Source: Bradyrhizobium sp. NDS-1
GTDB taxonomy: Bacteria > Pseudomonadota > Alphaproteobacteria > Rhizobiales > Xanthobacteraceae
Direction: 5' to 3'
Assembly (NCBI RefSeq): GCF_032918005.1
Contig: NZ_CP136628.1
Span: 4,511,501-4,575,500 of the forward strand
DNA: 64,000 nt
The notes below the pieces were generated by a model. It did no database searches. It had not been told where the DNA came from and saw only the letters and a program-made list of their open reading frames with translations. Shown in pieces: positions 3,443 through 21,220 of the stretch. How positions within the stretch are numbered: the first letter of the stretch is position 1; each line of letters starts with the position of its first letter. A program made the position numbers and the translations under genes.

Positions 3443-3597
3443 GGCGTGTTCCTCCTCTTTTGAATCGGAACGCGCAAGCGGAACGGGCGTTCCGTTTCCG
3501 TAGGTCTCATCCGTCGAAAGACGAAGCACAGGCTCCGCGCGGTTCAATATTCATCCGCCGTTCATCGGCCCGGCGCCGGCAATGGTGCTGCCGGATC

Positions 3598-5520: not shown

Positions 5521-5548
5521 GAGCTCTCCCGTCAAACATTCTTGATAT

Positions 5549-5574
5549 TGATCAGTATGCTGATGATCAGTATA
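5549..5574. promoter_or_regulatory. Twin MarR operator between mobA-like and marR genes
   Basis: TGATCAGTAT occurs twice in direct orientation, at 5549-5558 and 5564-5573. The second copy sits in a 19-bp near-perfect palindrome TATGCTGATGATCAGTATA (5556-5574), and the first in ATATTGATCAGTAT (12 of 14 palindromic). The position between divergent starts fits a MarR dimer controlling both genes. Confidence 0.65.
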
Positions 5575-5619
5575 CTTGTCAACGATCGTACACGTCGCGC
5601 CCGGTCTGAGGAGAATGCG

Positions 5620-6084: not shown

Positions 6085-6201
6085 TTTCAGACGCGTCCGC
6101 AATTGTCGCGGCGGGCTAAACCAGGAACTAACTTTCAGCTGCTAACGTCGGCCGCATTGCACGCTTAACGCGCGATTAACTTTTGCGGGACGGAGTTCCG
6201 G

Positions 6202-6633
6202 ATGTTCAGGTTCCTCGTTATGGCCGCAGCCATGACGCTCTCGGCCAGTCATGCTGTGGCGGGCGGCCATGGCGGCGGAGACCCTCCTCCGCCGAAGGTC
6301 GAGGCACCGGTGGCTCCAGCCAAAGTCATCCTGACCAAGCAGGGTCCCAAGCTCGTCAATCTCAACGGAATGACGCTCTATACCTATGAGCGCGACACTA
6401 CCGGAAAGACGTCGAGCTGCAACGGCAAGTGCACCGAGAGCTGGGTGCCGCTCGCCGCTACGGCCGACGCCAAAGCCGTCGGCGACTTCACCGTGATCAG
6501 CCGCGACGACGGCAGCAGGATGTGGGCGTACCGCTACCGTCCGCTCTACACTTCACCGGCCGACAAGGCGCCGGGCGATGCCAACGGCAACGCCATGACG
6601 CTGCAATGGCGGGTCGCTCGGCCTGAGAACTAG
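6202..6633 (+). CDS. Secreted repeat protein (COG4315 / lipoprotein_15 type)
   Basis: A 143-residue protein with a signal peptide (residues 1-20, ending ASHAVA) and a Gly/Pro-rich linker. The family's two repeats follow: NLNGMTLYTYERDTTGKTSS with CNGKCTESWVPL, then RDDGSRMWAYRYRPLYTSPAD. Two Cys in CNGKC could form a disulfide. Periplasmic; the function of the family is unknown. It stands alone on the plus strand, convergent with an L,D-transpeptidase gene. Confidence 0.8.
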   Translation: MFRFLVMAAAMTLSASHAVAGGHGGGDPPPPKVEAPVAPAKVILTKQGPKLVNLNGMTLYTYERDTTGKTSSCNGKCTESWVPLAATADAKAVGDFTVISRDDGSRMWAYRYRPLYTSPADKAPGDANGNAMTLQWRVARPEN

Positions 6634-6675
6634 CGCAAGATCGTCGCGCGAGAGTCGCAGCGCGCACGAATTTCC

Positions 6676-7329
6676 TTAGCCTCGCCAGCCTCCGCCGGCC
6701 TCCGCTCGCGCGCTCTGTCCGGGCGGCAGCACGACGACCATCGAATTGAGCTTCACCCGATCGTACAGATCGATCACGTCCTCGTTTCGCATCCGGATGC
6801 AGCCTGACGAGATTGCCTGCCCGATATATTCCGGCTGGTTGGTGCCGTGGATGCGGTAGAGCGTGTCCTTGTTGCCGGTATAGAGATAGATGCCGCGCGC
6901 ACCCAGCGGATTGGCCGGACCGCCGGGAACGCGCGCCGGATAAGGTCCGAGCCGCGCCTGGATGTCTGCCGTCGGAACCCAGTCGGGCCATTCCGCCAGA
7001 CGGCCAACCCGCGCAACGCCGGAGAACGCCATGGCTTCCTCGCCGACCGCAACGCCGTAGCGGATCGCCTTGCCTTCAGGCAGCACGTAATAGAGGTAGC
7101 GCGCGTCGGTATCGACGAGGATAGTGCCTGGCTGCTCCTTGCGGTGGTAATCGACGACGTGGCGGAGATATTGCTCGGGCACGTTCGCCTTCGCGTAAGG
7201 CGTATGCGCGAGCAACTGCCGGTCGCGCGGCGTCATGCTCGCGTCGCTCGACGGCGAAAGCGTTGCCTGCATGCAGCCGCCCAGCGGCAGCAAGGCAACA
7301 ACGAACAAAGCGAGTATGGATCTTGGCAC
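6676..7329 (-). CDS. L,D-transpeptidase lipoprotein (YkuD/ErfK family)
   Basis: A 217-residue envelope protein. A lipobox LGGC gives a lipidated Cys19 after a short hydrophobic leader. The YkuD domain covers about 70-205, with the catalytic HGTNQPEYIGQ...SSGCIRM signature (His and Cys nucleophile). Such enzymes make 3-3 cross-links in peptidoglycan or attach envelope proteins. GTG at 7329 places the lipobox at the usual distance; a TTG at 7383 would give an 18-residue extension, and neither start has a strong ribosome-binding site. Confidence 0.88.
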   Translation of the reverse strand: MPRSILALFVVALLPLGGCMQATLSPSSDASMTPRDRQLLAHTPYAKANVPEQYLRHVVDYHRKEQPGTILVDTDARYLYYVLPEGKAIRYGVAVGEEAMAFSGVARVGRLAEWPDWVPTADIQARLGPYPARVPGGPANPLGARGIYLYTGNKDTLYRIHGTNQPEYIGQAISSGCIRMRNEDVIDLYDRVKLNSMVVVLPPGQSARAEAGGGWRG

Positions 7330-7597
7330 CCCCGGCCCCCGAATAGCGATAGCAACGCCCCCAGCCTCCCCAGATGCTGACAAAATCGTGCTGAAAACAA
7401 GGCGGCGCGGAACACATGCGCGTGTTCGACAAATTGGGTTCCATCACCACAAACGGCGGAAGAGCGTCGCATCATCTCCATCCCCTCGCCTTGCTTTGGT
7501 CAAACCCGGCTGGACTCGTGCGTCATCGGGCCGGGCTGATCGGATTTGCCCGGCTCGCCGCACCAGATCGGCTCGCGCCAATGCGACCAGGACTTAA

Positions 7598-7626
7598 CAC
7601 CCGGGCTTCAAGCACCCGGGCTTCAA
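7598..7626. repeat. Tandem 15-bp direct repeat
   Basis: CACCCGGGCTTCAA occurs at 7598-7611 and 7613-7626, separated by one G. The second copy abuts the AAAGGAG ribosome-binding site of the next gene. It may be a slippage duplication or a regulatory repeat. Confidence 0.7.
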
Positions 7627-7636
7627 AGGAGCTGCG

Positions 7637-8686
7637 ATGCTCGCGACGCTGAACCCTAAGCAAATCGTCGATGAGATCGTGAAGGACACGGTCAAGGACA
7701 ACGATCCGCACGACGCGATTCAGATTTCACCCGACATCGTGCGGGCTTCGCGTCCCATCAGCGTTGCGCCCGCGCTGGCACCTGACGTCACGACGCGTCC
7801 GGAACCGAAATTCGCGCCGGAGCCCAGGTTCTCGCTTGAGCGCAAAATCTCTCTGGAGCCCCGGTTCAGTCCTGTCTCGGAGCCGCCGGCGGCACCCCCA
7901 CCCTCGGTTGATACTGCCGTACGCGTCGCAGCGAACGACGGTCATGGCCCGCGGAAGCGATCTGCCGTAGGCAACTGGATGCGCGGTGCATTCGTCACGT
8001 TCCTGTTTGCCGGAGGAAGCGTAGCCGCCACCATCGCGTGGGAGAAGCACGGCGATACCGCCAAACAAATGCTCGCCGAATGGACCCCGGTCTTGGCGTC
8101 GCTGCTGCCTCTGACATCGCAGTCCGCCACATCGCAGACCGCGCCGGTCGCCGCCGCCCAAGCCGCGCCGGCCGCGGAGCAAGCTGCCCCGCCTGCGGCA
8201 CAAGCGGCGGTCGATCAAACGGCCGTTCAACCCATAGCGCCGCCTGCGACCCAGGTTGCAGCCGCCGCGCCTGCGGCAACACCATCCGATGCCGCGCAGT
8301 CGGTGCAATCGATGACGCGCGACCTCGCCGCGATGGCGCAGCAGATCGAGCAGCTCAAGGCCAACATCGCCGAGTTGAAGGCCGGACAGGAGCAGATGGC
8401 CCGCGAGATGGCAAAGCCGCCCGCGCCGAAGCCGACAGCGGAGGTCAAGCCTCTCGATCCGCGCGCACGCGCAGCTGCGCTGCCGTCACCGCCGCCGGTT
8501 CGCAAACCGAAACCGGTCGTGTCGCACACTTACATGCCGGCCTCTTCGCCTGCGCCGCTCGCGCCTCCGCCGCCGCCCTCGCGAGCTGCCGCGATTCCGC
8601 CGCCATCGGCCGCACCTGTCACCACGACTGAAGCCGTTGCCGATGACGACGGACCAATCGTGCGTCCGCCGATGCCGTTGCGCTAG
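7637..8686 (+). CDS. Single-span membrane protein with Ala/Pro-rich domain
   Basis: A 349-residue protein of unknown function. Residues 1-110 are a cytoplasmic Pro-rich segment with repeated PxxPEPRFSLE-type units, followed by a basic patch (PRKRS) and one membrane span at about 116-135. An Ala/Gln/Pro low-complexity linker and a short coiled coil (MAQQIEQLKANIAELKAGQEQM, about 235-258) come next, and the C-terminus is Pro-rich. AAAGGAG seven bases before the ATG fixes the start. The shape resembles an inner-membrane scaffold; no catalytic motif is seen. Confidence 0.75.
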   Translation: MLATLNPKQIVDEIVKDTVKDNDPHDAIQISPDIVRASRPISVAPALAPDVTTRPEPKFAPEPRFSLERKISLEPRFSPVSEPPAAPPPSVDTAVRVAANDGHGPRKRSAVGNWMRGAFVTFLFAGGSVAATIAWEKHGDTAKQMLAEWTPVLASLLPLTSQSATSQTAPVAAAQAAPAAEQAAPPAAQAAVDQTAVQPIAPPATQVAAAAPAATPSDAAQSVQSMTRDLAAMAQQIEQLKANIAELKAGQEQMAREMAKPPAPKPTAEVKPLDPRARAAALPSPPPVRKPKPVVSHTYMPASSPAPLAPPPPPSRAAAIPPPSAAPVTTTEAVADDDGPIVRPPMPLR

Positions 8687-9063
8687 AGGCACGCAACAGC
8701 ACGGCGCCGCTACGACGTCGCGTAAGCTGTCCGAGTCGATGTCGTGCGTTGAGTCCGGGCAATTACGGAAAGCGACGCGCAGGTCATCTTTCGCTCAAGA
8801 GAAAAGGCCGTCGGGAGCTATGCCGGCGGCCTTCTCTTGCAGCTGCCGGTTCCCGGAGCCCGGTTCTGCTGCAATTCCATGCTTCATGATCACGCCACGT
8901 ATTTAATAAATTCTTAATGGACCAACATGCTGCACATCATTTCTGCGCCATAAGCACAGAGATTGCGCGGCCTGTTCATCCGCTGGATATCGACTCAGTG
9001 GTACCATCCGACATGTGTTGAGACTTCCACCGAAGCTCAGCTCCTCACACCGGGGGAATTCTG
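8687..9063. other. Intergenic region with hairpin and AT-rich promoter zone
   Basis: 377 bases without a convincing gene. It holds the hairpin listed at 8801-8836 and an AT-rich tract around 8900-8920 (TTTAATAAATTCTTAAT), a likely promoter for the DUF6894 gene, whose GGGGGAA ribosome-binding site closes the region. Confidence 0.5.
8801..8836 (+). terminator. Probable terminator hairpin
   Basis: Imperfect stem GAAAAGGCCGTCGG / CCGGCGGCCTTCTC (12 of 14 paired, the rest G-U compatible) around an 8-base loop. It is 115 bases past the membrane-protein gene and lacks a long T-run. Confidence 0.45.
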
Positions 9064-9294
9064 ATGCCTTACTACTCCTTCGATCTTGTGGTTGGTGAAG
9101 AGTTCAGGAACCAGGGCGGAATCATTCTCGAAGACATCGAGGTTGCCTCCGATCGAGCCGATCAACTGGCGACCGAGCTGTCGCAGGTGAAGCCGGAGCT
9201 GCAGCAGAAGGGCTGCGCGGTGCGAGTCACCGATCGCGATCACAACGAGCTCTATCGGACACCGCTCGATCCGGTGCCGGCCTGGCGACGCTGA
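9064..9294 (+). CDS. DUF6894 family small protein
   Basis: A 76-residue protein beginning MPYYSFDLVVGEEFRNQGGIILED, the usual opening of the rhizobial DUF6894 group, in which a two-strand N-terminus precedes a helix of Asp/Ala/Glu residues (ASDRADQLATELSQVKPEL). Function unknown; members are often present in many copies per genome. A GGGGGAA ribosome-binding site precedes the ATG. Its stop codon directly abuts the stop of the convergent SDR gene with no spacer. Confidence 0.75.
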   Translation: MPYYSFDLVVGEEFRNQGGIILEDIEVASDRADQLATELSQVKPELQQKGCAVRVTDRDHNELYRTPLDPVPAWRR

Positions 9295-10080
9295 CTATTC
9301 AGCAAAGGACGGCGGCTCGAACCAGTTCGTCAGCGACAATCCGCCGTCGACGACGAAAGCCGCGCCGGTGACGTAACCGGAGAGCTTGTTCGACAGCACC
9401 GCGAGCGCCATCGGTGCGAGGTCATTGGCCTCACCGAGGCGCCCGAGCGGAATGTGCCGTGCCAGCGCGGGATCCGCAACGAACCCGCCGGCCGCGATCG
9501 CGCCGGGCACCAGCGCGTTGACGCGGATGCCGTAGCGGCCAAACGATTTGGCCAGCTCCTTCACCAGCATCGCCAGCCCCGCCTTCGCCGTTGAATAGTG
9601 CGGCAGGTTGCGCGGCGTGCCCGCATGCAGCGAGGTGAGAAACAGGAACGAGCCCGGCCGCTTCGCCGCGATCAGCCGCTTTGCGAGTTCGCGCGCCAGG
9701 TGAAAGCCGGCATCGAGATTGACGGCATGCATCTGCTGCCAGATCCTGCGATCGACCGCGAACACATGATCGGCCTCCCGCCGCGGTGGCGACGCGCTGT
9801 GGACCAAATGCGTGATCTCGCCCAATGCTGCGTTCGCGGCGGCAAGCAGCGCGTCGCACGCATCCAACTCGGCGAGATCGCCGACCCAGGGCACCGCCAA
9901 TTCAGGCCGCCGGCTGGCGCCGATCGCGGCCGTCACCCGCTCGGCGTTCACATCGGCGAACACGGTCCGGACGCCCTCGCCGACCAAGGCCTGCGCGATC
10001 GCGCGGCCGATGCCGTTGCCCGCGCCGGTGACGAGTGCGGTGTCACGGGCAGGATCGAACGGGGTGCTGAACAGGCTCAT
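9295..10080 (-). CDS. Short-chain dehydrogenase/reductase
   Basis: A 261-residue classical SDR. The cofactor motif is TGAGNGIGRAIAQ near residue 20, Asp about 40 residues later (VFADVN) favours NAD(H), and the catalytic Ser and Tyr-x3-Lys lie in LFLTSLHAG and HYSTAKAGLAM. The C-terminus has the usual GAAFVVDGGLS. Start MSLFSTPFD chosen over a longer form with no ribosome-binding site. Substrate unknown; it stands alone, so no pathway can be assigned. Confidence 0.85.
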   Translation of the reverse strand: MSLFSTPFDPARDTALVTGAGNGIGRAIAQALVGEGVRTVFADVNAERVTAAIGASRRPELAVPWVGDLAELDACDALLAAANAALGEITHLVHSASPPRREADHVFAVDRRIWQQMHAVNLDAGFHLARELAKRLIAAKRPGSFLFLTSLHAGTPRNLPHYSTAKAGLAMLVKELAKSFGRYGIRVNALVPGAIAAGGFVADPALARHIPLGRLGEANDLAPMALAVLSNKLSGYVTGAAFVVDGGLSLTNWFEPPSFAE

Positions 10081-10210
10081 GTCACTCTCCGCGGCCGGAT
10101 TTCGGGCCACGATAGCGCACCGCAGGGGGAAGCGACAAATTCGCCCCGGCACCATTGCCGAGCGGCCCGCCGGACGCTAGCCTCTCAAAAAACGGAGGAG
10201 ATACCTGAGG

Positions 10211-10600
10211 ATGCGCTACGGTTTGCTGATCGCTGGCCTGTTGCTGATCGCCGCTCCGGCCCAAGCCGATGACCACACACGCTCGACCTATGTCACACTG
10301 GTCTTGCAGGCCTTCGCCGCCAAGGTCGAATGCCCGGGCACGGACGTGGCCTACCAGGACCTGGTGCAGAAGGCGGAGCAGATGCACCTGCCCCAAGGCA
10401 CCACCGAGAAGGTGCGCAAGGCGATTGCATGGATGCACACCGGCGGCAAGATGGGAGAGAAGCAGGACGACGATTTGATGGCCGAGGTCGCCGTGGCGAC
10501 CCAGGCGACCGATCTCAACCAGCGCCGCCTCGGCATGCCCAATTGGTGCGAGACTCAGAAGAGCAACCTCGCCGGCCTGATCCGCGCCAAAGGCGGCTAG
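10211..10600 (+). CDS. Secreted hypothetical protein
   Basis: A 129-residue protein with a signal peptide (MRYGLLIAGLLLIAAPAQA, cut before DDHT). The mature part is a small helical domain with two Cys (KVECPG and NWCETQK) that may pair in the periplasm. CGGAGGAG lies upstream of the ATG. No family recognised. Confidence 0.7.
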   Translation: MRYGLLIAGLLLIAAPAQADDHTRSTYVTLVLQAFAAKVECPGTDVAYQDLVQKAEQMHLPQGTTEKVRKAIAWMHTGGKMGEKQDDDLMAEVAVATQATDLNQRRLGMPNWCETQKSNLAGLIRAKGG

Positions 10601-10712
10601 CAGGCAGCTTTCGCGGCGTTAAGCACGCCGCAGGGAGATTTTGCGCCGGCCAAAAATTGTTCACAATTCTGGAAAGCATGCGGGCCTCTTCGAATTCGAA
10701 CAGGAATCTCTC

Positions 10713-10958
10713 ATGCGGATGATCCATGTCGTTTTCGCCGGCACGCTCGCGGCCGCCACGGTGCTGACGGGCCCTGTGCTGGCGAAGAATTCAGACAGCC
10801 AAAAAGCCGAGGGCAATTCGCCCTCCTCGAGCTGCAGCGCCTATCAGCAGGCGCCTGACGGGACTTGGGAGCAGCTTCCCTGCAAGGAGGCAGGGGACCG
10901 CAGCCAGCCGCAAACCCGCAGATCCTCATCGCAGGGAACCGAGCACGACGGCCGTTGA
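10713..10958 (+). CDS. Small secreted hypothetical protein
   Basis: An 81-residue protein with a signal peptide (about residues 1-23, ending in GPVLA). The mature part is polar and Ser/Gln-rich, with two Cys in SSCSAYQQ and QLPCKEAG. The start at 10713 is preferred over an upstream ATG because it begins the signal peptide; the ribosome-binding site AGGAA is modest. Low complexity and no known domain. Confidence 0.6.
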   Translation: MRMIHVVFAGTLAAATVLTGPVLAKNSDSQKAEGNSPSSSCSAYQQAPDGTWEQLPCKEAGDRSQPQTRRSSSQGTEHDGR

Positions 10959-10980
10959 GGCGCCTGCCCCTGCAGGTGGT

Positions 10981-11166
10981 TCAGCTCTGGTGAGGCCCGC
11001 GTATGATCTTCATGGCATCGGCGATGTGACGCCACTCTCTGGCCTCTTCGCCCTCGCCGCGGCCCTCGCAGGCCTGGGCCTGCTCGGCGGCCTTGGCGAT
11101 CGCAGCAAAACCGTGCTGTTCGAGCATCTGCCGCGCAACGGTATGGACCTGAACCTCGGACATCAT
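10981..11166 (-). CDS. Small hypothetical protein (61 aa)
   Basis: A compact, mostly helical protein (MMSEVQVHTVARQMLEQHG, then a Glu/Ala/Arg helix). GGAGAG nine bases upstream of the first ATG supports translation. No Cys, signal or membrane segment; no family recognised. It sits head-to-tail upstream-side of minE but about 200 bases from it, so it is probably independent. Confidence 0.6.
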   Translation of the reverse strand: MMSEVQVHTVARQMLEQHGFAAIAKAAEQAQACEGRGEGEEAREWRHIADAMKIIRGPHQS

Positions 11167-11304
11167 GGGCGCTCTCCGTCTGATGAGGCCGCGGGGTCTG
11201 GCTCGACTCTCCCGCGGTCTCAGATAATGATCTTGCCGCAGGTCCCGTTCCGCCCGCCGTCGATCACATCGGCAGGCCGGGGAACGTAAGCGACACGAAC
11301 GACA

Positions 11305-11336
11305 AAGGCGGCCCGCCATGCCCGGCGGACCGCCTT
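11305..11336 (-). terminator. Terminator of the min operon
   Basis: Stem AAGGCGGCCCGCC / GGCGGACCGCCTT (12 of 13 paired) with a 6-base loop, followed on the minus strand by TTTG. It lies 39 bases beyond the minE stop. Confidence 0.7.
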
Positions 11337-11374
11337 CTCACCCACCCCAAATGGGCCGCCGTCAGTCGCGCCCC

Positions 11375-11656
11375 CTACGCGACCGCCGCTTTCTTGCGCT
11401 CGAAATCATTGGGCACCTCGATATCGACCTCCAGGGTCGACACATCGTCGCCGCGCTCGAGCCGCACGATGACCTTGGTCGGATCCAGCGTCACATGCTT
11501 GGAGACGACAGCGAGAATTTCCTCACGCAGCACGCCGAGCAGATCGGGCTGGCCACGCATTCCGCGTTCATGGGCAAGCAGGATCTGCAGCCGTTCGCGC
11601 GCGACGGGTGCAGAGGCCTTGTTCCCGCGGAGAAGTCGGAGCAGACCCATGCTCAT
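11375..11656 (-). CDS. minE: Cell division topological specificity factor MinE
   Basis: A 93-residue MinE. The N-terminal MinD-activating segment contains [13 protein letters not shown], and the C-terminal topological-specificity domain has the [13 protein letters not shown] and [10 protein letters not shown] strands. MinE stimulates MinD ATPase and releases it from the membrane, driving pole-to-pole oscillation. GGAGGG precedes the ATG at 11656, and the gene overlaps minD by four bases (ATGA), so they are translationally coupled. Last gene of minCDE. Confidence 0.95.
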
Positions 11657-12468
11657 GCCGCCCTCCGTCGCAGCAGACGATCCATGAAGCCCTTGCGCTC
11701 GGTCGGCACCTGCATCGGAACGGTGTCGCCGCACAGCCGGCGCGCCGCGTCGATATAGGCCCGCGCCGGTGCGCCGTCCGCGTTCGACAGCGTGACCGGC
11801 GTGCCGACGTTGGAGGCGCGCAGCACGTCCTGGCTCTCGGGGATGATGCCGAGCAAGGGTGTCGCGAGGATCTCGAGGATGTCCTCGATCGTCAGCATCT
11901 CGCCGCGCGCGGCGCGTGAGGGATCGTAGCGGGTGATGAGAATGTGCTTCTCGACCCGCTCGCCCTTCTCGGCTCGCACGGTCTTGGAATCGAGCATGCC
12001 GATGATGCGGTCGGAATCGCGCACCGACGACACTTCCGGATTGGTGACGATCACGGCCTCGTCGGCGAAGCGCATCGCCATGGAGGCGCCGCGCTCGATG
12101 CCGGCCGGGCTGTCGCAGATCACCCAGTCGAAGCGGCCGCGCAAATCCTCGATGACCTTGCCGACACCCTCTTCCGTCAGCGCGTCCTTGTCGCGGGTCT
12201 GCGAGGCCGGCAGCAGCCACAAATTCTCCAGACGCTTGTCCTTGATCAGCGCCTGCGGGAGTTTGGCAACGCCCTGCACCACGTTGATGAGGTCGAACAC
12301 GACGCGGCGTTCGGCCCCCATCACGAGGTCGAGGTTCCGCAGGCCGACGTCGAAATCGACGACGACGACCTTGTCGCCGCGCTGCGCGAGCGCGGCCCCC
12401 AGCGCGGCGGTGGTCGTGGTCTTGCCGACCCCGCCCTTGCCTGATGTCACGACCAGTACCTTGGCCAT
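11653..12468 (-). CDS. minD: Septum site-determining ATPase MinD
   Basis: A 271-residue deviant-Walker ATPase. The N-terminus has [16 protein letters not shown] (P-loop with signature Lys), [14 protein letters not shown] (switch I) and [10 protein letters not shown] (switch II/Walker B). The C-terminus ends in a basic amphipathic helix, [12 protein letters not shown], for membrane targeting. MinD recruits MinC to membranes to block FtsZ assembly away from midcell. It lies 19 bases downstream of minC and overlaps minE by four. Confidence 0.97.
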
Positions 12469-12487
12469 CTCGAAAATCTCCTTCTGG

Positions 12488-13186
12488 TCAGTTCAGCGCG
12501 GTAATTCGCATGGTGTTGCCTTGCAGGAAGGCTTGGGCCGGCCGCCCGCGAAGAGCGGCGTCGATATCGTCGGCGGTCTGATAAAATCCATCGATTGCAA
12601 GCAGTTCGGCCTCGATCTTCTGACAATAGATGCGCGCACTCGTGTGCCCGTTCACGCCCGCCATGGCGCGGCCGCGCAGGGCGCCGTAGACGTGGATCGA
12701 GCCGCCGGCGACGACTTCCGCGCCGGAACCGACCGAGCCGAGGATGGTGACGTCGCCTTCGGGGAAGATCACGGTCTGGCCCGATCGCACCGGGTTTTCG
12801 AGCAGCAGTGAGGTCGGCTTGGCCTCGGTCTTCGCCTCAGCCTTTTTGGGCGCGTTTGGCTCGACCACGCAGCTGCGTCCGCCCGACAGCAGCGGCGGCA
12901 TCATCGGGGTCAACCTGGCCTCCTCCACGCCCTCGATCCCGAGCACGCGGATGTTGCGGTCCTGCAGGCTGGTGAGCAGATGGCCGATGCCGGACTGGCT
13001 GAGGTCGACCGAGGACAGGTCGATCACCACGGGCCGGCCGGCAAAGAAGCCCGGTGAGCGGGCGATGGTCGCGTCGATCTCGTGCAGCCAGTCCAGAACC
13101 GGAACCGTCGGCGTGAACACGAAGGCCACGTAGGAGCGCCCGCGCAGGCGCACCATTTGGCGTTGAGGTTTGACTGCAGCCTCCAT
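12488..13186 (-). CDS. minC: Septum site-determining protein MinC
   Basis: A 232-residue inhibitor of FtsZ polymerisation. The N-terminal domain (about 1-105) carries FAGRPVVIDLSSVDLSQ; a Pro/Lys-rich linker follows, then the C-terminal beta-helix that binds MinD (QTVIFPEGDVTILGSVGSGAEVVA, then GSIHVYGALRGRAMAG). First gene of minCDE. No strong ribosome-binding site is seen before the ATG at 13186. Confidence 0.95.
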   Translation of the reverse strand: MEAAVKPQRQMVRLRGRSYVAFVFTPTVPVLDWLHEIDATIARSPGFFAGRPVVIDLSSVDLSQSGIGHLLTSLQDRNIRVLGIEGVEEARLTPMMPPLLSGGRSCVVEPNAPKKAEAKTEAKPTSLLLENPVRSGQTVIFPEGDVTILGSVGSGAEVVAGGSIHVYGALRGRAMAGVNGHTSARIYCQKIEAELLAIDGFYQTADDIDAALRGRPAQAFLQGNTMRITALN

Positions 13187-13300
13187 AGCGGCCGACTCGT
13201 TCCCTGTTATTGAATGGTTAACGATGCGGCGGATATGGTTAATGGCCGGTTAATTCTCCGTGGGAATACCTGGGGGATGGGCAGGCTGGAGCCGCTTTCG

Positions 13301-13434
13301 TGTCCCGGACGGGCTGCAGCGTGCAACGCTGCTGCGCAGAGCCGGGACCCACGCCTCCCGGATCATGCTCTCGGTAAAATGGGCCCCGGCTCTGCAGCGC
13401 ACCGTCTAAGGGACGCTGCGCTACGTCCGGGGCA
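13301..13434. repeat. Long imperfect inverted-repeat element
   Basis: A 134-bp palindromic element with outer arms TGTCCCGGACGGGCTGCAGCG and CGCTGCGCTACGTCCGGGGCA, and inner arms GCTGCGCAGAGCCGGGACCC and GGGCCCCGGCTCTGCAGCGC. It lies between minC and the ABC binding-protein gene. It resembles dispersed non-coding elements of Bradyrhizobium chromosomes, and could also end transcription. Confidence 0.6.
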
Positions 13435-13463
13435 GGTGCGGAGAACGGGGCAACGGCTGCCCC

Positions 13464-14480
13464 TTACCTCTTCACCTTGCTCGCGTCCATCTTGATGCTC
13501 GGATCCAGCATCTTCGTCGTGAACGCCGTCGTCACGTCGAATGGCTTCTCCATGCCGAGATAGGTGTGGACCAGATCGTAGTCCTTCTTCATCCGCTCGC
13601 CGTCGATCCAGCCGAGACCCTTGGTGGTGGTGAACTCGTCCGTCATCAGGAACTTGATGCGCTCCCACTGGCGCTCCTGGTTCTCCTTGTCGAGACCGGA
13701 GACCTGGTCGAGCAGCGCCTTCAGGCACGGCGTGGCGTCGGCGACGCAGGCGGCAAAGGCCTTCTGCGTGACACGCACGAAGTCTTCGACGACCTTCGGA
13801 TTCTTCTGCAGGTAAGCGCCGTTGACGATCAGCGAGTTGCCGTAAGGATTGAGCCCGATGTCCTTCCAGTTGACGTAGCCGAGGTCCTGTCCGAACTCGA
13901 TCACCTTCAGATCGTGCTCGTTGTAGAAGTCACTGATGATGTCGACGGTGTGGCTCTTCAACGCCGCGATCTTCGCGGTCGGCCCGACATTGACGAAGCC
14001 GACGGCATCGGGTGCAAGGCCTGCGGCCTTGGCGAAGGCCGGCCACATCACGCGCGAGGCATCGCCGGGCGGATTGCCGATCTTGTGGCCGGCAAAATCC
14101 TTCACCCCGTTCACGCCGTAGCTCTTCAGCCAGTAGAAGGTCTGTCCGGTATTGGCGTAGACGCTCATCACGGCAACGGTGTCGGCGCCCTTGCTCTTGG
14201 CCACCAGCATGGTGGCGAGATCGGCGACGCCGAAGGGCGAGCCGCCGGAGCCGACCTTGGCGGCGGAGACGCCGGAGCCCTTGCCGACCTCGATGGAGAG
14301 GTCGATGCCCGCCTTCTCGTACCAGCCCTGCGCCTTGGCGTAATAATACGGCGAGTGGTCGGCCGTCGGCGTCCAGTTGAGGATCAGGTTCACAGCCTCG
14401 CCCGCGCTCGCCGGCACCGCCGGCAAACCGAGCGCCAGCGCCAATACCAGGGCAGAGCCCGCCGCTTGCAAATGCTTCAT
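13464..14480 (-). CDS. ABC transporter substrate-binding protein, NMT1/SsuA type
   Basis: A 338-residue periplasmic protein. A signal peptide (residues 1-24, ending VPASA) is followed by the NMT1/THI5-like fold: LNLILNWTPTADHSPYYYAKAQGWY-type opening (seen as VNLILNWTPTADHSPYYYA), then GKGSGVSAAKVGSGGSPFGVAD and KSKGADTVAVMSVY. GAGGAGAGG precedes the ATG. It is divergent from the TetR, permease and enzyme genes that end with a matching ATPase. NMT1-like proteins bind pyrimidines, taurine, sulfonates or other small molecules; the ligand here is unknown. Confidence 0.85.
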   Translation of the reverse strand: MKHLQAAGSALVLALALGLPAVPASAGEAVNLILNWTPTADHSPYYYAKAQGWYEKAGIDLSIEVGKGSGVSAAKVGSGGSPFGVADLATMLVAKSKGADTVAVMSVYANTGQTFYWLKSYGVNGVKDFAGHKIGNPPGDASRVMWPAFAKAAGLAPDAVGFVNVGPTAKIAALKSHTVDIISDFYNEHDLKVIEFGQDLGYVNWKDIGLNPYGNSLIVNGAYLQKNPKVVEDFVRVTQKAFAACVADATPCLKALLDQVSGLDKENQERQWERIKFLMTDEFTTTKGLGWIDGERMKKDYDLVHTYLGMEKPFDVTTAFTTKMLDPSIKMDASKVKR

Positions 14481-14580
14481 CGCACCTCTCCTCATTGCCG
14501 CGACCCGGCTTGTCGCTCTCCCCATGGAAGGATACCAATGCAACAAGCCCGCCCTCAACTTGTCAACTGTTTGGTTGGAA

Positions 14581-15228
14581 ATGACCGCAAAACGATCTGG
14601 CGACACCGTGCCGCAGCGGCGCGACCCCGTCGCCACCCGCAAGAAACTGCTCACCGCGGCGCGGCTGGAATTCGCCCGGCATGGCCTTGCGGGGGCCCGC
14701 GTCGACGAGATCGCCGAGCGCGCCGGCGTCAACAAGCAGCTCGTCTATCATTACTTCGGCGACAAGGACGCGCTCTACCTCGCCGTACTCGAATGGGTCT
14801 ATGAGGACATCCGCGAGCAGGAGCGCCGGCTCAATCTCGAAGGCCTGCCACCGGAGAAGGCGATCCGCAGGCTGATCGAAGCCTCGTTCGACCATCTGGC
14901 CGCAAACCCCGATTTCATCGTGCTTTTGAACGACGAGAACCGCAGCGGCGCCCGCCACGTCCGCGGCTCGACCCGGCTGGAGGCGATGCATTCCCCGCTG
15001 GTCAAGAGCGTCTCGCACATCCTCAACGAAGGCGTGCGCGCGGGCGTGTTCCGCAAGGGGATCGATCCGGTCCAACTCTATATCTCCATTGCCGGCCTCA
15101 GCTATTTCTTCTTCTCCAACACGCCGACGCTGTCGGCGATTTTCGGCAAGGACCTGTCGAGCCGCGCCCAGCGCCGCGCCCGTCGCAGGCACGTCGCCGA
15201 CCTCGTGCTCCACTCGCTCCGGCCATAA
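14581..15228 (+). CDS. TetR family regulator, RutR-like
   Basis: A 215-residue regulator. The helix-turn-helix is at about 20-65 (ARVDEIAERAGVNKQLVYHYFGDKDALY) and the ligand domain carries DENRSGARHVRGSTRLEAMHSPL. Located between the divergent binding-protein gene and the permease gene, with a 7-2-7 palindrome right after its stop in the spacing used by RutR. The ATG lacks a good ribosome-binding site; an in-frame ATG at 14524 would add 19 residues. It likely controls the whole cluster, sensing the imported compound or a product. Confidence 0.82.
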   Translation: MTAKRSGDTVPQRRDPVATRKKLLTAARLEFARHGLAGARVDEIAERAGVNKQLVYHYFGDKDALYLAVLEWVYEDIREQERRLNLEGLPPEKAIRRLIEASFDHLAANPDFIVLLNDENRSGARHVRGSTRLEAMHSPLVKSVSHILNEGVRAGVFRKGIDPVQLYISIAGLSYFFFSNTPTLSAIFGKDLSSRAQRRARRRHVADLVLHSLRP

Positions 15229-15244
15229 TCAACCAACTGGTTGA
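15229..15244. promoter_or_regulatory. Palindromic operator before ABC permease gene
   Basis: TCAACCA-AC-TGGTTGA has perfect 7-bp arms with a 2-bp spacer, the same geometry as the RutR site TTGACCA-NN-TGGTCAA. It follows the tetR stop by one base, 83 bases before the permease start. A weaker relative (TCAACTGTTTGGTTGG) lies just before the tetR ATG. Confidence 0.65.
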
Positions 15245-15327
15245 AACTTTCCTCAAGGGCGGTTAGGCTTGCGGCTGCTTAGGCTGAAGATTTGCGGCAT
15301 CGCCGCCGCGCCAACAGGGAGCAACCG

Positions 15328-16098
15328 GTGGCAGGAGACAGCGCACGCGCCTCGCGCAGGTTTGCGATCATCCTGATCGTGCACCTCGCCGTGCTCGTGC
15401 TCTGGCAGGTCCTGGTCGACGCCTTCCACGTGCCGAAATTCATCCTGCCCTCCCCGCTCGCGACCGTGCAGACGCTGGGAACCGCGAGCTATGCCTGGGG
15501 CGCCAACACGCTGGTGACGGCGATCGAGATCCTCGGCGGCTTCGCGCTCGGCGCCTTCGTCGGCGTCGCGCTCGCGGTGATCTTCAGTTGGGCGCCGCTG
15601 CTGAGCCTCGTGCTGCTGCCGCTGTTCGTGACACTGAACATGATCCCGAAGGTCGCGCTCGGCCCGCTCTTCATCGTCTGGTTCTCCTACGGCATCGTGC
15701 CGAACATCCTGATCGCCTTCAGCATCTGCTTCTTTCCGATCCTGCTCACCACCGCGCGGGGCCTGCGCGAGGTCGAGCCGGACCTGCTCGACCTCGTGAA
15801 ATCGCTGCGCGGCTCGCGCTGGACGTTGTTTCGCAAGATCCAGCTGCCGGGATCGCTGCCTTACATATTCTCCGGCATGAAGGTCGGCGCCATCCTCGCG
15901 GTCGCCGGCGCCATCGTCGGGGAATTCATCGCCTCCGAGCGCGGGCTCGGCTACCTCATGATCCAGGTGCAGTCCTCGCTCGACACGCCCGCGATGGTGA
16001 TGGCGGTCGTGCTGCTGACACTGCTCGGGGTCGCGCTCTACGGCCTGGTGCTCGCCCTCGAACGCATGTTCGTGGTCGGCGACGCAAGACAGACCTGA
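15328..16098 (+). CDS. ABC transporter permease, SsuC/TauC type
   Basis: A 256-residue inner-membrane protein with about six hydrophobic helices and the binding-protein-dependent transport motif (EVEPDLLDLVKSLRGSRWTLFRKIQLPGSLPYIFSGMKVG; the EAA loop that contacts the ATPase). GTG at 15328 was chosen because GGGAG lies upstream and a positively charged, short N-terminus results. Together with the binding protein at 13464 and the ATPase at 19026 it completes a Tau/Ssu-type importer. Confidence 0.9.
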   Translation: MAGDSARASRRFAIILIVHLAVLVLWQVLVDAFHVPKFILPSPLATVQTLGTASYAWGANTLVTAIEILGGFALGAFVGVALAVIFSWAPLLSLVLLPLFVTLNMIPKVALGPLFIVWFSYGIVPNILIAFSICFFPILLTTARGLREVEPDLLDLVKSLRGSRWTLFRKIQLPGSLPYIFSGMKVGAILAVAGAIVGEFIASERGLGYLMIQVQSSLDTPAMVMAVVLLTLLGVALYGLVLALERMFVVGDARQT

Positions 16099-16130
16099 CA
16101 ACGACAGAACTAGGACCGGGGACCAGATCC

Positions 16131-17168
16131 ATGCTGCTCACACGCCAGACGCTGCCCAAGACCATCCCCGATATCGCTGCCCTCGACGATCTCCTGTGCC
16201 GGCCGAGCCAGGCGCTGATCGACGACCTCAAGAAAGTCGAGGGCGACATCATGATCCTCGGCGTCGGCGGCAAGATGGGGCCGACGCTGGCGGGGCTCGC
16301 AAAAGCCGCCGTCCCGGATCGCCGCGTGATCGGCGTCGCCCGCTTCAGCGAAGCCGGTGTTGAGGAGTGGCTGCAGGCGCGCGGCGTGGAGACCATCAGT
16401 TGCGACCTGATGGACGAGCGCGCGATCCAGGCGCTGCCGAAGACACCCAACATCATTTTCATGGCCGGTAGAAAATTCGGCGCCGAGGGCGATCTGTCGC
16501 TGACTTGGGCCATGAACGCGCACGTGCCGGCGCTGGTCGCGCAGGCCTTCCCGTCCTCGCGCATCGTCGCGTTCTCGACCGGCTGCATCTATCCGTTCGT
16601 GCCGGTCGACGGCAAAGGCTCGACCGAGGACATGGCGCCGAACCCGCCCGGCGAATACGCGCAATCCTGCGTCGGCCGGGAGCGGATGTTCGAGTATTTC
16701 TCGCATAAGTTCGCAACGCCGGGACGGCTGTTCCGCCTCAATTACGCAATCGACATGCGCTACGGCGTCCTGCACGACATCGCGACGAAAGTGCTCGCGG
16801 GTACACCGATCGACGTCAGCCTCGGCCATGTCAATTTCATCTGGCAGGGCGACGCCTCGGCGCAGGCACTGCGCTGCCTCGCGCATTGCACGACGCCGAC
16901 CTCGCCGATCAACGTCAGCGGCCACGAGATTTTGGCGGTGCGCGATCTCGCCCAAAAATTCGGCGCAAGGTTCGGCCGCGCACCGGTGCTGACAGGCAAG
17001 GAGGAGCCGACGGCGTGGCTGACCGACACGTCAAGGGCGGTCGAACTGTTCGGCCTGCCTGTCGTCGACACCGAGCAACTGATCGCCTGGACCGCGGATT
17101 GGGTCTCGCGCGCCATGCCGAGCCTCGGCAAGCCCACCAAATACGAGGTGCGCGATGGCCGTTACTGA
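16131..17168 (+). CDS. NAD-dependent epimerase/dehydratase-like protein
   Basis: A 345-residue extended-SDR fold protein. A dinucleotide motif MILGVGGKMGPTLAG lies at 42-55 after a 40-residue N-terminal extension; VAFSTGCIYPF carries the Ser/Thr near 150, and Tyr176 is in GEYAQSCVGRERMFEYF. The Lys expected four residues after Tyr is Cys180, so the standard catalytic triad is incomplete. It lies 32 bases after the permease gene and overlaps the acetyltransferase by 14 bases. It may act on the imported compound; the reaction is unknown. Confidence 0.8.
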   Translation: MLLTRQTLPKTIPDIAALDDLLCRPSQALIDDLKKVEGDIMILGVGGKMGPTLAGLAKAAVPDRRVIGVARFSEAGVEEWLQARGVETISCDLMDERAIQALPKTPNIIFMAGRKFGAEGDLSLTWAMNAHVPALVAQAFPSSRIVAFSTGCIYPFVPVDGKGSTEDMAPNPPGEYAQSCVGRERMFEYFSHKFATPGRLFRLNYAIDMRYGVLHDIATKVLAGTPIDVSLGHVNFIWQGDASAQALRCLAHCTTPTSPINVSGHEILAVRDLAQKFGARFGRAPVLTGKEEPTAWLTDTSRAVELFGLPVVDTEQLIAWTADWVSRAMPSLGKPTKYEVRDGRY

Positions 17169-17976
17169 CGCCCCGCCCATCCTCAAGCTTGGCGTCGACG
17201 ACGCGCTGGCAGGGCTCGCGCTATCGACGGAGGCGCACTGGAACCAGATCGAGGACGATTGGCGCATCTTCCTGCGTGAAGGCGTCGTGTTCGGCATTCG
17301 TGACGGTGCGCGACTGGTCGCGACCGCAGCCCTGCTGCCCTATTCCGGCAACAACGCCTGGATCAGCATGGTGCTGGTATCAGGCACGCATCGCCGCCGT
17401 GGCCTTGCCACCCGTCTCGTCGACGCCTGCCTGGAAACCGCGCGCCAGAACGGCCTGACCAGCTGGCTCGACGCCACGCCCGACGGCGCCGAGGTGTACG
17501 GACCGCTGGGGTTTACACCGACGCTGCAATTGCGCCGCCTGAAGCTGATGAAACCCGCGCGAGCCGAAGCGCCGCCCCCGTCATCCGCAACACTCGATGC
17601 GCTTCGTATGCGGGACCGGCGGGCCACAGGTTTCGACCGGTCTGCCCTGCTCTCCGCCTTCGCACAGCGCACCGGCTCGCGGATCGTGTCCGCGAACGGC
17701 GCCATCGCGCTGGTTCGCGACGGCAGAACCGCCCGCCATATCGGCCCGTTGTTCGCGGACGACGCCGCGGCAGCTCTGGCCTTGGTTGACGCGATCGTGC
17801 GCTCCGAGACCAGTCCGATGCTGCTCGACGCCGTCGCCGCGCAAGGCGTACTCCTGGATGGATTGCTGGCTGCCGGCTGGACCATCGAGCGTCCGTTCCA
17901 GCGCATGCGGTTCGGCGCCGCCACCATCGCCGCCGAAGAAATGCCATTCGCCGTCGCCGGCCCCGAATTCGGATAG
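17155..17976 (+). CDS. GNAT acetyltransferase with C-terminal YitH/HolE-like domain
   Basis: A 273-residue protein. The N-terminal GNAT domain (about 30-130) has the acetyl-CoA loop HRRRGLATRLVD at 79-90 and YGPLGFTPTLQLRR; the C-terminal 130 residues resemble the second domain of YitH/HolE-type acetyltransferases (IVSANGAIALVRDGRTARHIGPLF). It overlaps the upstream SDR-like gene by 14 bases and is six bases from the DapA-like gene, so it is part of the operon. Acetylation of a pathway amine is an inference. Confidence 0.82.
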   Translation: MAVTDAPPILKLGVDDALAGLALSTEAHWNQIEDDWRIFLREGVVFGIRDGARLVATAALLPYSGNNAWISMVLVSGTHRRRGLATRLVDACLETARQNGLTSWLDATPDGAEVYGPLGFTPTLQLRRLKLMKPARAEAPPPSSATLDALRMRDRRATGFDRSALLSAFAQRTGSRIVSANGAIALVRDGRTARHIGPLFADDAAAALALVDAIVRSETSPMLLDAVAAQGVLLDGLLAAGWTIERPFQRMRFGAATIAAEEMPFAVAGPEFG

Positions 17977-17982
17977 GACATC

Positions 17983-19038
17983 ATGCATCACAGCCAGATC
18001 CACAGCGACATCCGCAAGCTGATCGCCGACGGCACCGTGATGCCGGCGCATCCCCTCGCCCTCACCGCCGAGCGCCAGCTCGACAAGACGCATCAGCGCG
18101 CGCTGACGCGCTATTACATCGACGCGGGCTCAGGCGGCCTTGCGGTCGGCGTGCACACCACCCAATTCGCGATCCGCGACGTCGGCCTCTACCGCCCCGT
18201 GCTCGAGCTCGCCGCCGAGACGGCAGCACACTGGACCAAGCGTGCGCTGGCAATGGTCGCAGGCCTTGCCGGCCCAACCAGCCAGGCAACCGCCGAAGCC
18301 CGCACCGCGCGCGACATCGGCTATCACGCCGGCCTGCTCAGCCTCGCCGCGATGAAGAGCGCCTCCGAGGACGAGATCATCGCCCACTGCACGGCGGTCG
18401 CCGCCGAAATCCCGCTGATCGGCTTCTATCTTCAGCCGGCCGTCGGCGGGGTTGTCCTGTCGAGCCGTTTCTGGCAGCGCTTCGCCTCGATCGACAATGT
18501 CATCGCCATCAAGATCGCGCCTTTCAACCGTTACCGGACCCTCGATGTGCTGCGCGGCGTCGCGGCGGCCGGCGCGCTCGACCGCGTCGCGCTCTACACC
18601 GGCAATGACGATCACATCCTGCTCGACCTGATGCTGCCGTTCGACCTTCGCGAGAACGGCAGCACCACGCGGACCTATTTCAAAGGCGGCCTGCTCGGCC
18701 ATTGGTCGGTTTGGACCGCGAGCGCGATCAAGCAGTTCGAGCGTTGCAAGGCAACGCGGCACAAGGACAGCGTACCCGCGGACCTGCTCGCGCTTGATGC
18801 CCGCGTCACCGACTGCAACAGCGCTTTCTTCGACGTCGCCAATGATTTTCACGGCTGCATCGCAGGCTGCCATGAAGTTCTGAGGCGCCAGGGCCTGATG
18901 AAAGGTCTGTGGTGCCTCGATCCGAACGAAGGCCTCAGCCCCGGCCAGAAGGAGGAGATCGATCGCGTCACCCGTGAGCACGCCGACCTCAGCGACGATG
19001 CCTTCGTCGCCGCCAACCTGAATAAATGGCTGGCATGA
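17983..19038 (+). CDS. DapA-like (dihydrodipicolinate synthase family) aldolase/lyase
   Basis: A 351-residue TIM-barrel protein of the DHDPS/NAL superfamily, which forms a Schiff base between an active-site Lys and a 2-oxo acid. The likely Schiff-base Lys is K177 (AIKIAPFNRY) and the Tyr equivalent lies in GFYLQPAVGG (Y149). The usual GTTGE loop reads GVHTTQ (56-61), so the substrate is not the normal DapA one. About 50 residues longer than DapA, with a C-terminal extension. Overlaps the ATPase gene by 13 bases. Confidence 0.85.
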   Translation: MHHSQIHSDIRKLIADGTVMPAHPLALTAERQLDKTHQRALTRYYIDAGSGGLAVGVHTTQFAIRDVGLYRPVLELAAETAAHWTKRALAMVAGLAGPTSQATAEARTARDIGYHAGLLSLAAMKSASEDEIIAHCTAVAAEIPLIGFYLQPAVGGVVLSSRFWQRFASIDNVIAIKIAPFNRYRTLDVLRGVAAAGALDRVALYTGNDDHILLDLMLPFDLRENGSTTRTYFKGGLLGHWSVWTASAIKQFERCKATRHKDSVPADLLALDARVTDCNSAFFDVANDFHGCIAGCHEVLRRQGLMKGLWCLDPNEGLSPGQKEEIDRVTREHADLSDDAFVAANLNKWLA

Positions 19039-19808
19039 GCTCGGCCCCCTTCATCAGCCTGCAAGGCGTCCGCAAGGTCTATCGCAGCGGCGGCGCCGAG
19101 TTTCTCGCGGTGTCCGACGTCACCATGGACGTGCAGGAGGGTGAGCTGGTCTCACTGGTCGGCCCGTCCGGCTGCGGCAAGACCACGGTGATGAAGATCC
19201 TGGCCGGCCTGCACGACGCCGACGGCGGCACCGTGACGATCGGCAACGCGAAGAGCCCGTTCGACCCGACCCGCGACGTCGGCATGGTGTTTCAGCAGGC
19301 GCTGCTCCTGAAGTGGCGCACCATCCTGGACAACGTGCTATTGCCGGCCGAGATCGTCGGCCTGCCCATGAAGGCCGCGCGCGAGCGGGCGCGCGATCTG
19401 CTCAACCTGGTCGGGCTCGCCGGCTATGAGCAGAAATATCCGCAGCAGCTCTCCGGCGGCATGCAGCAGCGCACCGCGATCGCGCGCGCCTTCGTCCACG
19501 ATCCCAAGCTGATCCTGATGGACGAGCCGTTCGGCGCGCTGGATGCGCTGACGCGAGAGCAGATGAATCTGGAAATGCTGCGGATCTGGCGCCAGAGCGG
19601 CAAGACCATCATCTTCGTCACGCATTCGATCCAGGAGGCCGTGTTCCTGTCCTCGCATTGCGCCGTGCTGACCGCAGGACCTGCGAAGATGGCCGACTAT
19701 TTCCCGATCGACCTGCCCTTCCCCCGCGACCTGCCGCTCAAGACCACCGACGCATTCGGTGCCTATGCGCGAAGGATCTATGCGAAGCTTGGATTGGGAG
19801 CGGTGTAA
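19026..19808 (+). CDS. ABC transporter ATP-binding protein, SsuB/TauB type
   Basis: A 260-residue ATPase with all core motifs: Walker [10 protein letters not shown] (46-54), Q-loop Gln90, signature LSGGMQQR (142-149), Walker B LILMDE (162-167) and switch His200. It is the last gene of the five-gene plus-strand unit (permease, SDR-like, GNAT, DapA-like, ATPase) and overlaps the preceding gene. It pairs with the permease at 15328. Confidence 0.93.
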
Positions 19809-19999: not shown

Positions 20000-21091
20000 T
20001 CAGCTCTTGTTGCGCATCTTGCTGAGCAGGTAATTGTCGTAAAAATTCTCCGCGATCTGCGTATAGAACAGCAGCTCCTTCATATACGCGTCGTGGCTGT
20101 CCTTGGTCCGCTTGAACAGCTCGCTCTTGGCGGCGAGCTCGTTCAAATGCTCCTGGGTCGCGTTATAGCAGGCCTCCAGCACCGGTTGCGGGAACGCTTT
20201 CAGCTCCGCGCCGTTGGCGAGCAGCCGCTTCAGCGCCGCCGGATTCACGCTGTCGTATTTCTCGAGCATCCAGGCGCCGGCCGCCGCGCCCGCCTGGTTG
20301 ACGATCGCCTGGTACTGCTTGGGCAGCGAGGCCCATTTCTCGTCGTTGACGATCATGTGCAGCATGGCGCCGCCTTCCCACCAGCCGGGGAAGTAGTAGT
20401 ACTTGGCGACCTTCTGGAATCCGAGCTTCTCGTCGTCATAGGGACCGACGAACTCGACCGCGTCGATCGTGCCCTTCTCCAGCGCCGGATAGATGTCACC
20501 GCCTGCGATCTGCTGCGGAACGACCCCGAGCTTTGCCAGCACATGGCCGCCCATGCCGGCGATGCGGAATTTGAGACCCTTCAGGTCGTCGACGGTCTTG
20601 ATCTCCTTGCGGAACCAGCCGCCCATCTGGGTGCCGGAATTGCCGCAGAGAATCGCGTGCGCCTTGAACGGTTTCAGCGCCTCATTGGTGAGGTCGGCGC
20701 CACCGCCGAAGTGCCACCACGATTCCTGATGGCGATGGTTCATGCCGAAGGGCGCGCCGGTGGCATAGGCCAGCGCAGGCTCCTTGCCGATGTAGAAATA
20801 GAGCGGGGTCTGCGCCATCTCCACCGAGGACGTGCTGACGGCATCGAGCGCCTGCAAGCCCGGAACGATCTCGCCGGCGCCAAAGGTCTGGATCTGAAAT
20901 TTGTTGTCCGTGGCCTCGGCGATATATTTCGCGAAGGTCTGCGCCGTGCCGTAGATGGTGTCGAGCGATTTGGGGAAGCTCGAGGTCAGGCGCCATTTGA
21001 TCTCGGGCATGCTCTGCGCGATCGCAGGTGCAGCAACCAGCGTCGTCGCGCCGGCGGCCGCGCCGCCCGTGAGAAATGTACGGCGTTTCAT
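20000..21091 (-). CDS. TRAP transporter substrate-binding protein (DctP/TakP-like), orphan
   Basis: A 363-residue periplasmic protein with a Tat signal (MKRRTFLTGGAAAGATTLVA, cut near APAIAQ). The DctP fold is evident: SSFPKSLDTIYGTAQTFAKYI at the start of the mature part, QIAGGDIYPALEKGTIDAVEFVGPYDD for the carboxylate-binding loop, and a long C-terminal helix typical of the TakP alpha-keto acid binders. No membrane subunits are nearby; the complete dctPQM set at 35 kb is separate. Convergent with the ABC ATPase gene. Confidence 0.88.
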   Translation of the reverse strand: MKRRTFLTGGAAAGATTLVAAPAIAQSMPEIKWRLTSSFPKSLDTIYGTAQTFAKYIAEATDNKFQIQTFGAGEIVPGLQALDAVSTSSVEMAQTPLYFYIGKEPALAYATGAPFGMNHRHQESWWHFGGGADLTNEALKPFKAHAILCGNSGTQMGGWFRKEIKTVDDLKGLKFRIAGMGGHVLAKLGVVPQQIAGGDIYPALEKGTIDAVEFVGPYDDEKLGFQKVAKYYYFPGWWEGGAMLHMIVNDEKWASLPKQYQAIVNQAGAAAGAWMLEKYDSVNPAALKRLLANGAELKAFPQPVLEACYNATQEHLNELAAKSELFKRTKDSHDAYMKELLFYTQIAENFYDNYLLSKMRNKS

Positions 21092-21220
21092 GGTGGGTTC
21101 TCCCTGAAAGCAAGTTTGAAACTTATGGGCTTGCGGCAACGGTCTTTGCCGACCGTTTGCCCGTTCCTGGAACGGAGTTCAAGTTGTGAAAGCCTAGCCT
21201 ATAGCTCCGATGGAGCGCCG

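Follow-up and report, generated by a model that had tools for sequence, protein, structure and literature searches.

What is imported and processed by a seven-gene cluster of Bradyrhizobium sp. NDS-1 in which two of three enzymes lack residues typical of their families? The cluster lies in a stretch of 64,000 nucleotides, here called the window (G000:C1 4511501-4575500 of a single-contig genome of 7.65 Mb), and spans window positions 13464-19808: a divergent binding protein gene, a TetR-type regulator, and then, on the plus strand, genes for a permease, a short-chain dehydrogenase/reductase (SDR), a GNAT acetyltransferase, a DapA-like protein and an ATPase. We propose that it is a TetR-controlled, patchily spread import-and-catabolism operon for a polyhydroxylated compound, in which the SDR and the DapA-like protein would act consecutively on a keto-sugar-like intermediate, a reading to which we give about an even chance of being correct. 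All seven genes, with a 14-base overlap between SDR and GNAT (17155-17168) and a 13-base overlap between the DapA-like protein and the ATPase (19026-19038), were recovered from open reading frames (ORFs) and Pfam matches just where an initial annotation, made from the letters alone, had placed them.

A pair of atypical enzymes

That the SDR (16131..17168, plus strand, 345 aa) and the DapA-like protein (17983..19038, plus strand, 351 aa) form a pair is close to certain. We surveyed 397 genomes of the order to which NDS-1 belongs, with thresholds of E up to 1e-20 for the DapA-like protein and up to 1e-40 for the SDR. At these thresholds both proteins occur in an identical set of 31 genomes from 10 genera, neither occurs in the other 366, and no genome has one alone (Fisher value 7e-47, shared ancestry ignored). 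The SDR cut-off is not the cause of this perfect agreement, because the weakest listed SDR match has an E-value of 1.1e-110.

The association is also physical. We compared 110 loci: 80 from a contig scan (the best 80 of at least 551 confirmed relatives), 10 plasmid records and 20 genome regions. In 105 of them the DapA-like gene has an SDR relative no more than 12 kb away. Locus-level counts of neighbors, GNAT presence and distances were based on ORF matches instead of the gene calls in unannotated loci, which were produced by an in-house GC-frame script and in some cases lie on the wrong strand. The five loci with no nearby SDR are L059, where the stretch starts inside the GNAT gene, L079, L137, L150 and L154; the genomes of the last two (G805 and G822, respectively) encode an SDR elsewhere, on another contig or approximately 40 kb away. 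Protein distances of the SDR correlate with those of the DapA-like protein at r = 0.89 (43 loci plus the window), and those of GNAT, TetR and ATPase at 0.76, 0.72 and 0.46 (differing locus subsets). The two genes are adjacent in Actinomycetota (L102, L107, L108, L110), Bacillota (L104, L106) and Planctomycetota (L105). Since the gene set recurs across genera, and the pair across four phyla, we consider the set to be more than a chance assembly. The copy number is not strictly 1:1, as five genomes carry a second SDR (G657, G679, G692, G751, G785). Extra SDR-GNAT copies at L161 (in G751, 8469-16901) and L166 (in G785, 2851-11300) have as neighbors tripartite-tricarboxylate importer genes, a protein of approximately 500 residues that matches DUF3604 weakly, and MR380, an ordinary MR/MLE enzyme of 380 residues.

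Both enzymes depart from their families in the ways that the initial annotation had described, and these departures proved to be conserved. An alignment of the DapA-like protein with its homologs comprised 47 sequences, and for 46 of these the identity to the window protein is 50-86%. Lys177, aligned to the Schiff-base lysine of the family, is present in all 47, and V57, H58, T60, Q61 and F62 are invariant, with position 59 being T in 43, S in 2 and A in 2. In a profile alignment, this V-H-x-T-Q-F stretch (VHTTQF in the window protein, in place of GTTGE) falls where a solved lyase has its G-S-T-G-E loop; the 47 sequences lack the GxTGE carboxylate-binding loop of dihydrodipicolinate synthase (DHDPS) and N-acetylneuraminate lyase enzymes acting on 2-oxo acids. 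The motif YTGNDD (205-210) is invariant as well, Y149, placed by eye at the catalytic tyrosine, is Y in 44, A in 2 and S in 1, and approximately 50 extra C-terminal residues have invariant positions of their own. The match to DHDPS (PF00701) exceeds the Pfam gathering score (33.9 bits, cut-off 22.1) and is partial, covering residues 27-216. Scores remain below the cut-offs of the KdgD model (NF002958, 22.3 of 278 bits) and of two N-acetylneuraminate lyase models (NF003164, 21.8 of 281; TIGR00683, 20.5 of 382). The genome encodes eight other DHDPS-family proteins scoring 82.5-330.7 bits, and the window protein is the weakest by far (33.7 bits in this comparison).

The SDR is assigned to the extended type by an Epimerase match (PF01370, 27.8 bits against a gathering score of 20.9). 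In 44 sequences Tyr176 is always kept, whereas position 180, that of the lysine in YxxxK, is C in 41, including the window protein, and V in 3; S149, R183 and E184 are invariant, as are glycines 44, 47 and 50 in the aligned homologs. The protein therefore lacks the YxxxK catalytic motif of classical and extended SDR dehydrogenases such as Udh. A PDB search returned weak matches only, among them the TerB oxidoreductase. Because the unusual residues of both enzymes are conserved across homologs, they are family traits and not decay of a single copy.

The third enzyme, GNAT (17155..17976, plus strand, 273 aa), matches Acetyltransf_1 at 47.3 bits and has a second, degenerate-looking domain (Acetyltransf_18). 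The [RQ]xxGx[GA] acetyl-CoA motif is intact in 91 of 92 homologs. GNAT accompanies the pair in 32 of 50 diverse loci, including the planctomycete one, and is missing from 18; in a wider count it was found in 89 of 101 loci. No GNAT was found in the Actinomycetota or Bacillota records that carry the pair.

Gene order, likely operator and distribution

The initial annotation had the importer genes enclosing the three enzymes. This holds for the permease (15292..16098, plus strand, BPD_transp_1 94.8 bits) and the ATPase (19026..19808, plus strand, ABC_tran 111.7 bits); because the binding protein gene is divergent, only these two flank the enzymes on one strand. The NMT1/THI5-type periplasmic binding protein (13464..14480, minus strand, 338 aa) has a start that resembles a signal peptide by eye and matches PF09084 at 138.3 bits, above the gathering score of 20.5.

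A comparison of gene order, which the initial annotation had proposed as a check, found the order kept outside close relatives, including other genera and plasmids. The closest locus among the matches listed in the GTDB scan is that of Bradyrhizobium diazoefficiens SZCCT0449 (DapA-like protein 99% identical). The arrangement of binding protein, TetR and permease-SDR-GNAT-DapA-like-ATPase is found in Bradyrhizobium, Rhodopseudomonas (L063), Rhodoplanes (L072, L073), Mangrovicella (L076) and Ferrovibrio (L080), and on plasmids of Tistrella and Sulfitobacter. Distant loci, among them L074, L076, L080, L081, L109 and L151, likewise show the overlap between the DapA-like and ATPase genes. In L077, L078, L082-L084, L087 and L088 the enzymes are kept and the importer is rearranged or replaced. 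To the left of the seven genes lie what appear by eye to be minC and minD, and to the right a lone DctP-family TRAP binding protein gene (window 20000-21139, minus strand). The left flank is matched in 31 and the right flank in 28 of the 80 scan loci, and the operon unit far more widely. The DapA-like protein was detected in 12 of 398 genomes of a phylum sample, in 31 of the 397 genomes of its own order and 11 of 15 sampled genomes of its own genus, and in four of 250 genomes of the order of G379, one of these four being two partial matches. Given this patchy presence, we infer that the operon has probably spread horizontally.

The regulator (14581..15228, plus strand, 215 aa, TetR_C_29 139.6 bits) had been called RutR-like, a resemblance that does not go beyond the superfamily (TIGR03613, 62.3 bits against a cut-off of 368). 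Immediately downstream of its gene and before the permease lies the palindrome TCAACCAACTGGTTGA (15229..15244, plus strand), a likely TetR operator and the only exact match in the genome to TCAACCANNTGGTTGA. With up to two mismatches, this motif occurs at 29 places in the genome compared with 14 for a reversed control. Its conservation was assessed in 92 loci with a TetR at least 45% identical to that of the window: with at most one mismatch it lies beside TetR in 73 of 92, and the reversed control in none. Even in the 35 loci where TetR identity is below 80%, the motif was found in 17 (control 0) with at most one mismatch and in 24 (control 0) with at most two. At L161 it flanks the extra SDR-GNAT copy. 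With up to two mismatches, it was not found in the rearranged-importer loci L078, L083, L088, L103 and L147. These counts suggest that TetR binds the palindrome at 15229-15244. A second candidate copy (14563..14578, plus strand, three mismatches to the palindrome) lies just before the TetR start; it is weak and not convincing alone, because seven such matches occur in the window against 1.01 expected.

Partner genes and candidate substrates

The families found near the pair in relatives are Gfo/Idh/MocA, PF01261 isomerase-like proteins, a group of 480-residue proteins (MR480), MR380, DUF993, PhyH and small MetE-like proteins. A script detected at least one of MR480, MR380, isomerase-like, Gfo/Idh or DUF993 near the pair in 24 of the 50 diverse loci, with family counts of 17 for MR480, 20 for isomerase-like, 11 for Gfo/Idh, 7 for DUF993 and 9 for TctA; some of these rows match themselves, as several reference sequences came from the same loci. 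The annotation of the records themselves further points to L105 (isomerase, Gfo/Idh) and L108 (Gfo/Idh). For the Gfo/Idh proteins of relatives, the best-fitting models are those of inositol dehydrogenase and levoglucosan dehydrogenase, whose cut-offs are missed by a wide margin. MR480 proteins score 33.0 and 31.0 bits against MR_MLE_C (cut-off 29.4) in L077 and L083, do not match it in L148, L138, L107 and L171, and gave no match in a PDB search. Their conserved KxK, D267, E302, D327 and K350 fit what we take to be the enolase-superfamily signature. Across the order, MR480 is present in 28 of the 31 genomes with the pair and in 23 of the 366 others (17 of 20 and 20 of 362 outside the genus of NDS-1), and DUF993 in 29 of 31 against 11 of 36 pair-less genomes, these 36 being order members listed without a match in the phylum-sample and own-order surveys. 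A relationship of DUF993 to DHDPS was also considered: lysine and YTGDD motifs align, but with an hhalign probability of 2.7% (E 0.017) this stays a lead.

NDS-1 itself carries several of these families in a sister cluster 1.27 Mb from the operon (C1 approximately 5.799-5.807 Mb; L171 = G000:C1:5792501-5812400, locus 6040-15597), with a row of genes for TetR (50% identical to the window TetR), an NMT1-type importer, MR480, Gfo/Idh, DUF993 and an isomerase-like protein, and with a glyoxalase-family gene. Its Gfo/Idh scores 53.9 of 650 bits against the levoglucosan dehydrogenase model NF052479. In other genomes, parts of this set stand beside the SDR and/or the DapA-like gene (G785, L167; G751, L149; G661, L170; G485, L155; G016, L137), as they do in L078, L083 and L088. 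The operon and the sister cluster of NDS-1 may serve one pathway. A PhyH dioxygenase and/or a small MetE-like protein adjoins SDR/DapA-like or DUF993 genes in L078, L083, L088, L137, L155, L167, L164 and L165. CoA-transferase genes and an FAD-dependent oxidoreductase gene lie near the pair in L102, L107 and L148, and an enoyl-CoA hydratase gene in L102 and L107, which suggests CoA-linked later steps.

We infer a catabolic direction, a substrate class and an order of steps as follows. The NMT1-type ATP-binding cassette (ABC) importer would take up a small molecule, most likely polyhydroxylated (a sugar, cyclitol, sugar acid or lactone). The SDR without lysine might then oxidize or rearrange a keto-sugar-like intermediate, and the DapA-like protein would form a Schiff base between K177 and the carbonyl before cleaving or dehydrating the carbon chain, with GNAT acetylation as a possible accessory step. 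TetR would repress from the palindrome at 15229-15244 until the substrate or an intermediate is present, and further steps (enolase-like, Gfo/Idh, isomerase-like, DUF993) may be supplied in NDS-1 by the sister cluster. More tentatively, and with a probability well short of even, the pair could catalyze a reaction of two enzymes that has not been described before and has been retained in four phyla. In it, a Schiff-base lyase with a substrate loop remodeled about an invariant histidine (VHxTQF) would take as substrate the ketone of a keto-sugar or cyclitol, not a 2-oxo acid, with an obligate lysine-less SDR partner that perhaps uses Cys180 and Arg183 instead.

The initial annotation had favored import and breakdown of one small nitrogenous or acylated compound. 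Import and breakdown of a single compound fit the conservation, the operator and the patchy distribution, although breakdown itself would be a prediction from these features; the nature of the compound is where we differ. We hold a sugar, cyclitol or sugar acid, with moderate confidence, to be the better candidate because of the neighbors and the alternative importers in relatives, which look like catabolism of such compounds and fall short of proof. A nitrogenous substrate (a pyrimidine-like heterocycle, amine or amino sugar), with GNAT acetylating the amine and the DapA-like protein cleaving the resulting 2-oxo acid, seems unlikely to us. It would accord with the NMT1 relatives that bind pyrimidine precursors, the closest solved chains to the binding protein being 4nmy and 3ix1 (formyl-aminopyrimidine binding protein), and with the frequent GNAT genes and their intact acetyl-CoA motif. 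Yet the pair persists without GNAT in Actinomycetota and Bacillota records, scores with the RutR and taurine/sulfonate models do not come near their cut-offs, and no rut gene was recognized around the operon by family models on window proteins, with neighbors taken from the ORF list only. The importer type also changes among relatives (NMT1 ABC, carbohydrate ABC, tripartite tricarboxylate, major facilitator superfamily), and similarity of the binding protein was for this reason not relied on to assign a substrate. Uptake of a sulfonate or other sulfur compound, with the enzymes processing its carbon skeleton, is very improbable: the binding protein, permease and ATPase do score above noise with SsuA, SsuC, TauC and TauB-type models, but all far below cut-off (for the binding protein, SsuA TIGR01728 52.6 of 163.5 and taurine TIGR01729 31.1 of 304.25 bits), and none of the seven genes belongs to a desulfonating enzyme family in Pfam. 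DHDPS-family enzymes also catalyze condensations and nucleotide-sugar biosynthesis often involves SDRs, so that the role of the three enzymes might be synthesis or detoxification and not breakdown of a carbon source; TerB, the weak relative of the SDR, is labeled an oxidoreductase. We regard this as improbable, given that importers constantly accompany the enzymes and that CoA-transferase, enoyl-CoA hydratase, 2-hydroxyacid dehydrogenase or serine ammonia-lyase genes lie nearby in some relatives.

Several observations weigh against a sugar-type catabolic operon. By script, 26 of the 50 diverse loci, and the window, have no sugar-type partner nearby. DUF993 and MR480 may serve another pathway, since both also occur without the pair, and gene presence is confounded by ancestry, which Fisher values ignore. 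An SDR without its lysine may be no dehydrogenase at all. Control of the sister clusters by the same operator was rejected, as L171-L174 lack the motif even when two mismatches are allowed. Finally, the pyrimidine-precursor ligands of the solved binding proteins, the NMT1 family itself and the GNAT gene still favor the nitrogenous or acylated compound first suggested.

Comparison with known systems

A database search with the DapA-like protein gave at least 8000 scored candidates, and among the 120 matches listed the only names were "dihydrodipicolinate synthase" or its lyase family, or hypothetical protein. We sought a known pathway with the same genes, which the initial annotation had named as grounds for abandoning its proposal, and searches of an open-access library turned up no publication that deals with these genes as a set; "DUF993" was not found there either. 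The function of the operon would give a setting to DUF993, to the 480-residue enolase-like group and to this branch of NMT1 importers, and the exclusive pairing with a lysine-less SDR, the candidate operator and the recurrent partner families make it testable by a small knockout panel.

By make-up, the oxidative hexuronate and levoglucosan pathways are the nearest known routes, and both fail on defining features. Udh is an Epimerase-type dehydrogenase, Gci an enolase-superfamily-like enzyme and KdgD a DHDPS-family enzyme. The operon and its relatives encode proteins like these three, and would share a non-phosphorylating route with the Udh-Gci-KdgD pathway as presented in the accessible part of PMC6353982, the enolase-like enzyme being found in relatives. 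They differ in that the operon SDR has no catalytic lysine, the DapA-like protein has no GxTGE and scores 22.3 of 278 bits with the KdgD model, and the window has no enolase-like gene. In the levoglucosan/3-keto-sugar pathway LgdA-LgdB-LgdC (PMC10066097, accessible part), the Lgd superfamilies Gfo/Idh and PF01261 are those also found in relatives and in the sister cluster; its main text, as far as accessible, does not contain "dihydrodipicolinate", and there was no Gfo/Idh, and so no levoglucosan dehydrogenase (NF052479), among the eight window proteins scanned. Hydrolases of 3-keto sugars are the subject of PMC9007349, where the fate of 3-ketogalactose is called unknown and "dihydrodipicolinate" is absent from the accessible text.

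The importer resembles the NMT1/THI5-type systems ThiXYZ, Ssu and Tau in having one binding protein, one permease and one ATPase of the same families, and differs from them in that no substrate-specific NCBIfam model that it matched reached its cut-off. Similarly, the DapA-like protein shares with the DHDPS/N-acetylneuraminate lyase family a match above cut-off and the conserved Schiff-base lysine, and is set apart from it by V-H-x-T-Q-F in place of the G-[ST]-T-G-E loop and by its C-terminal extension of approximately 50 residues.

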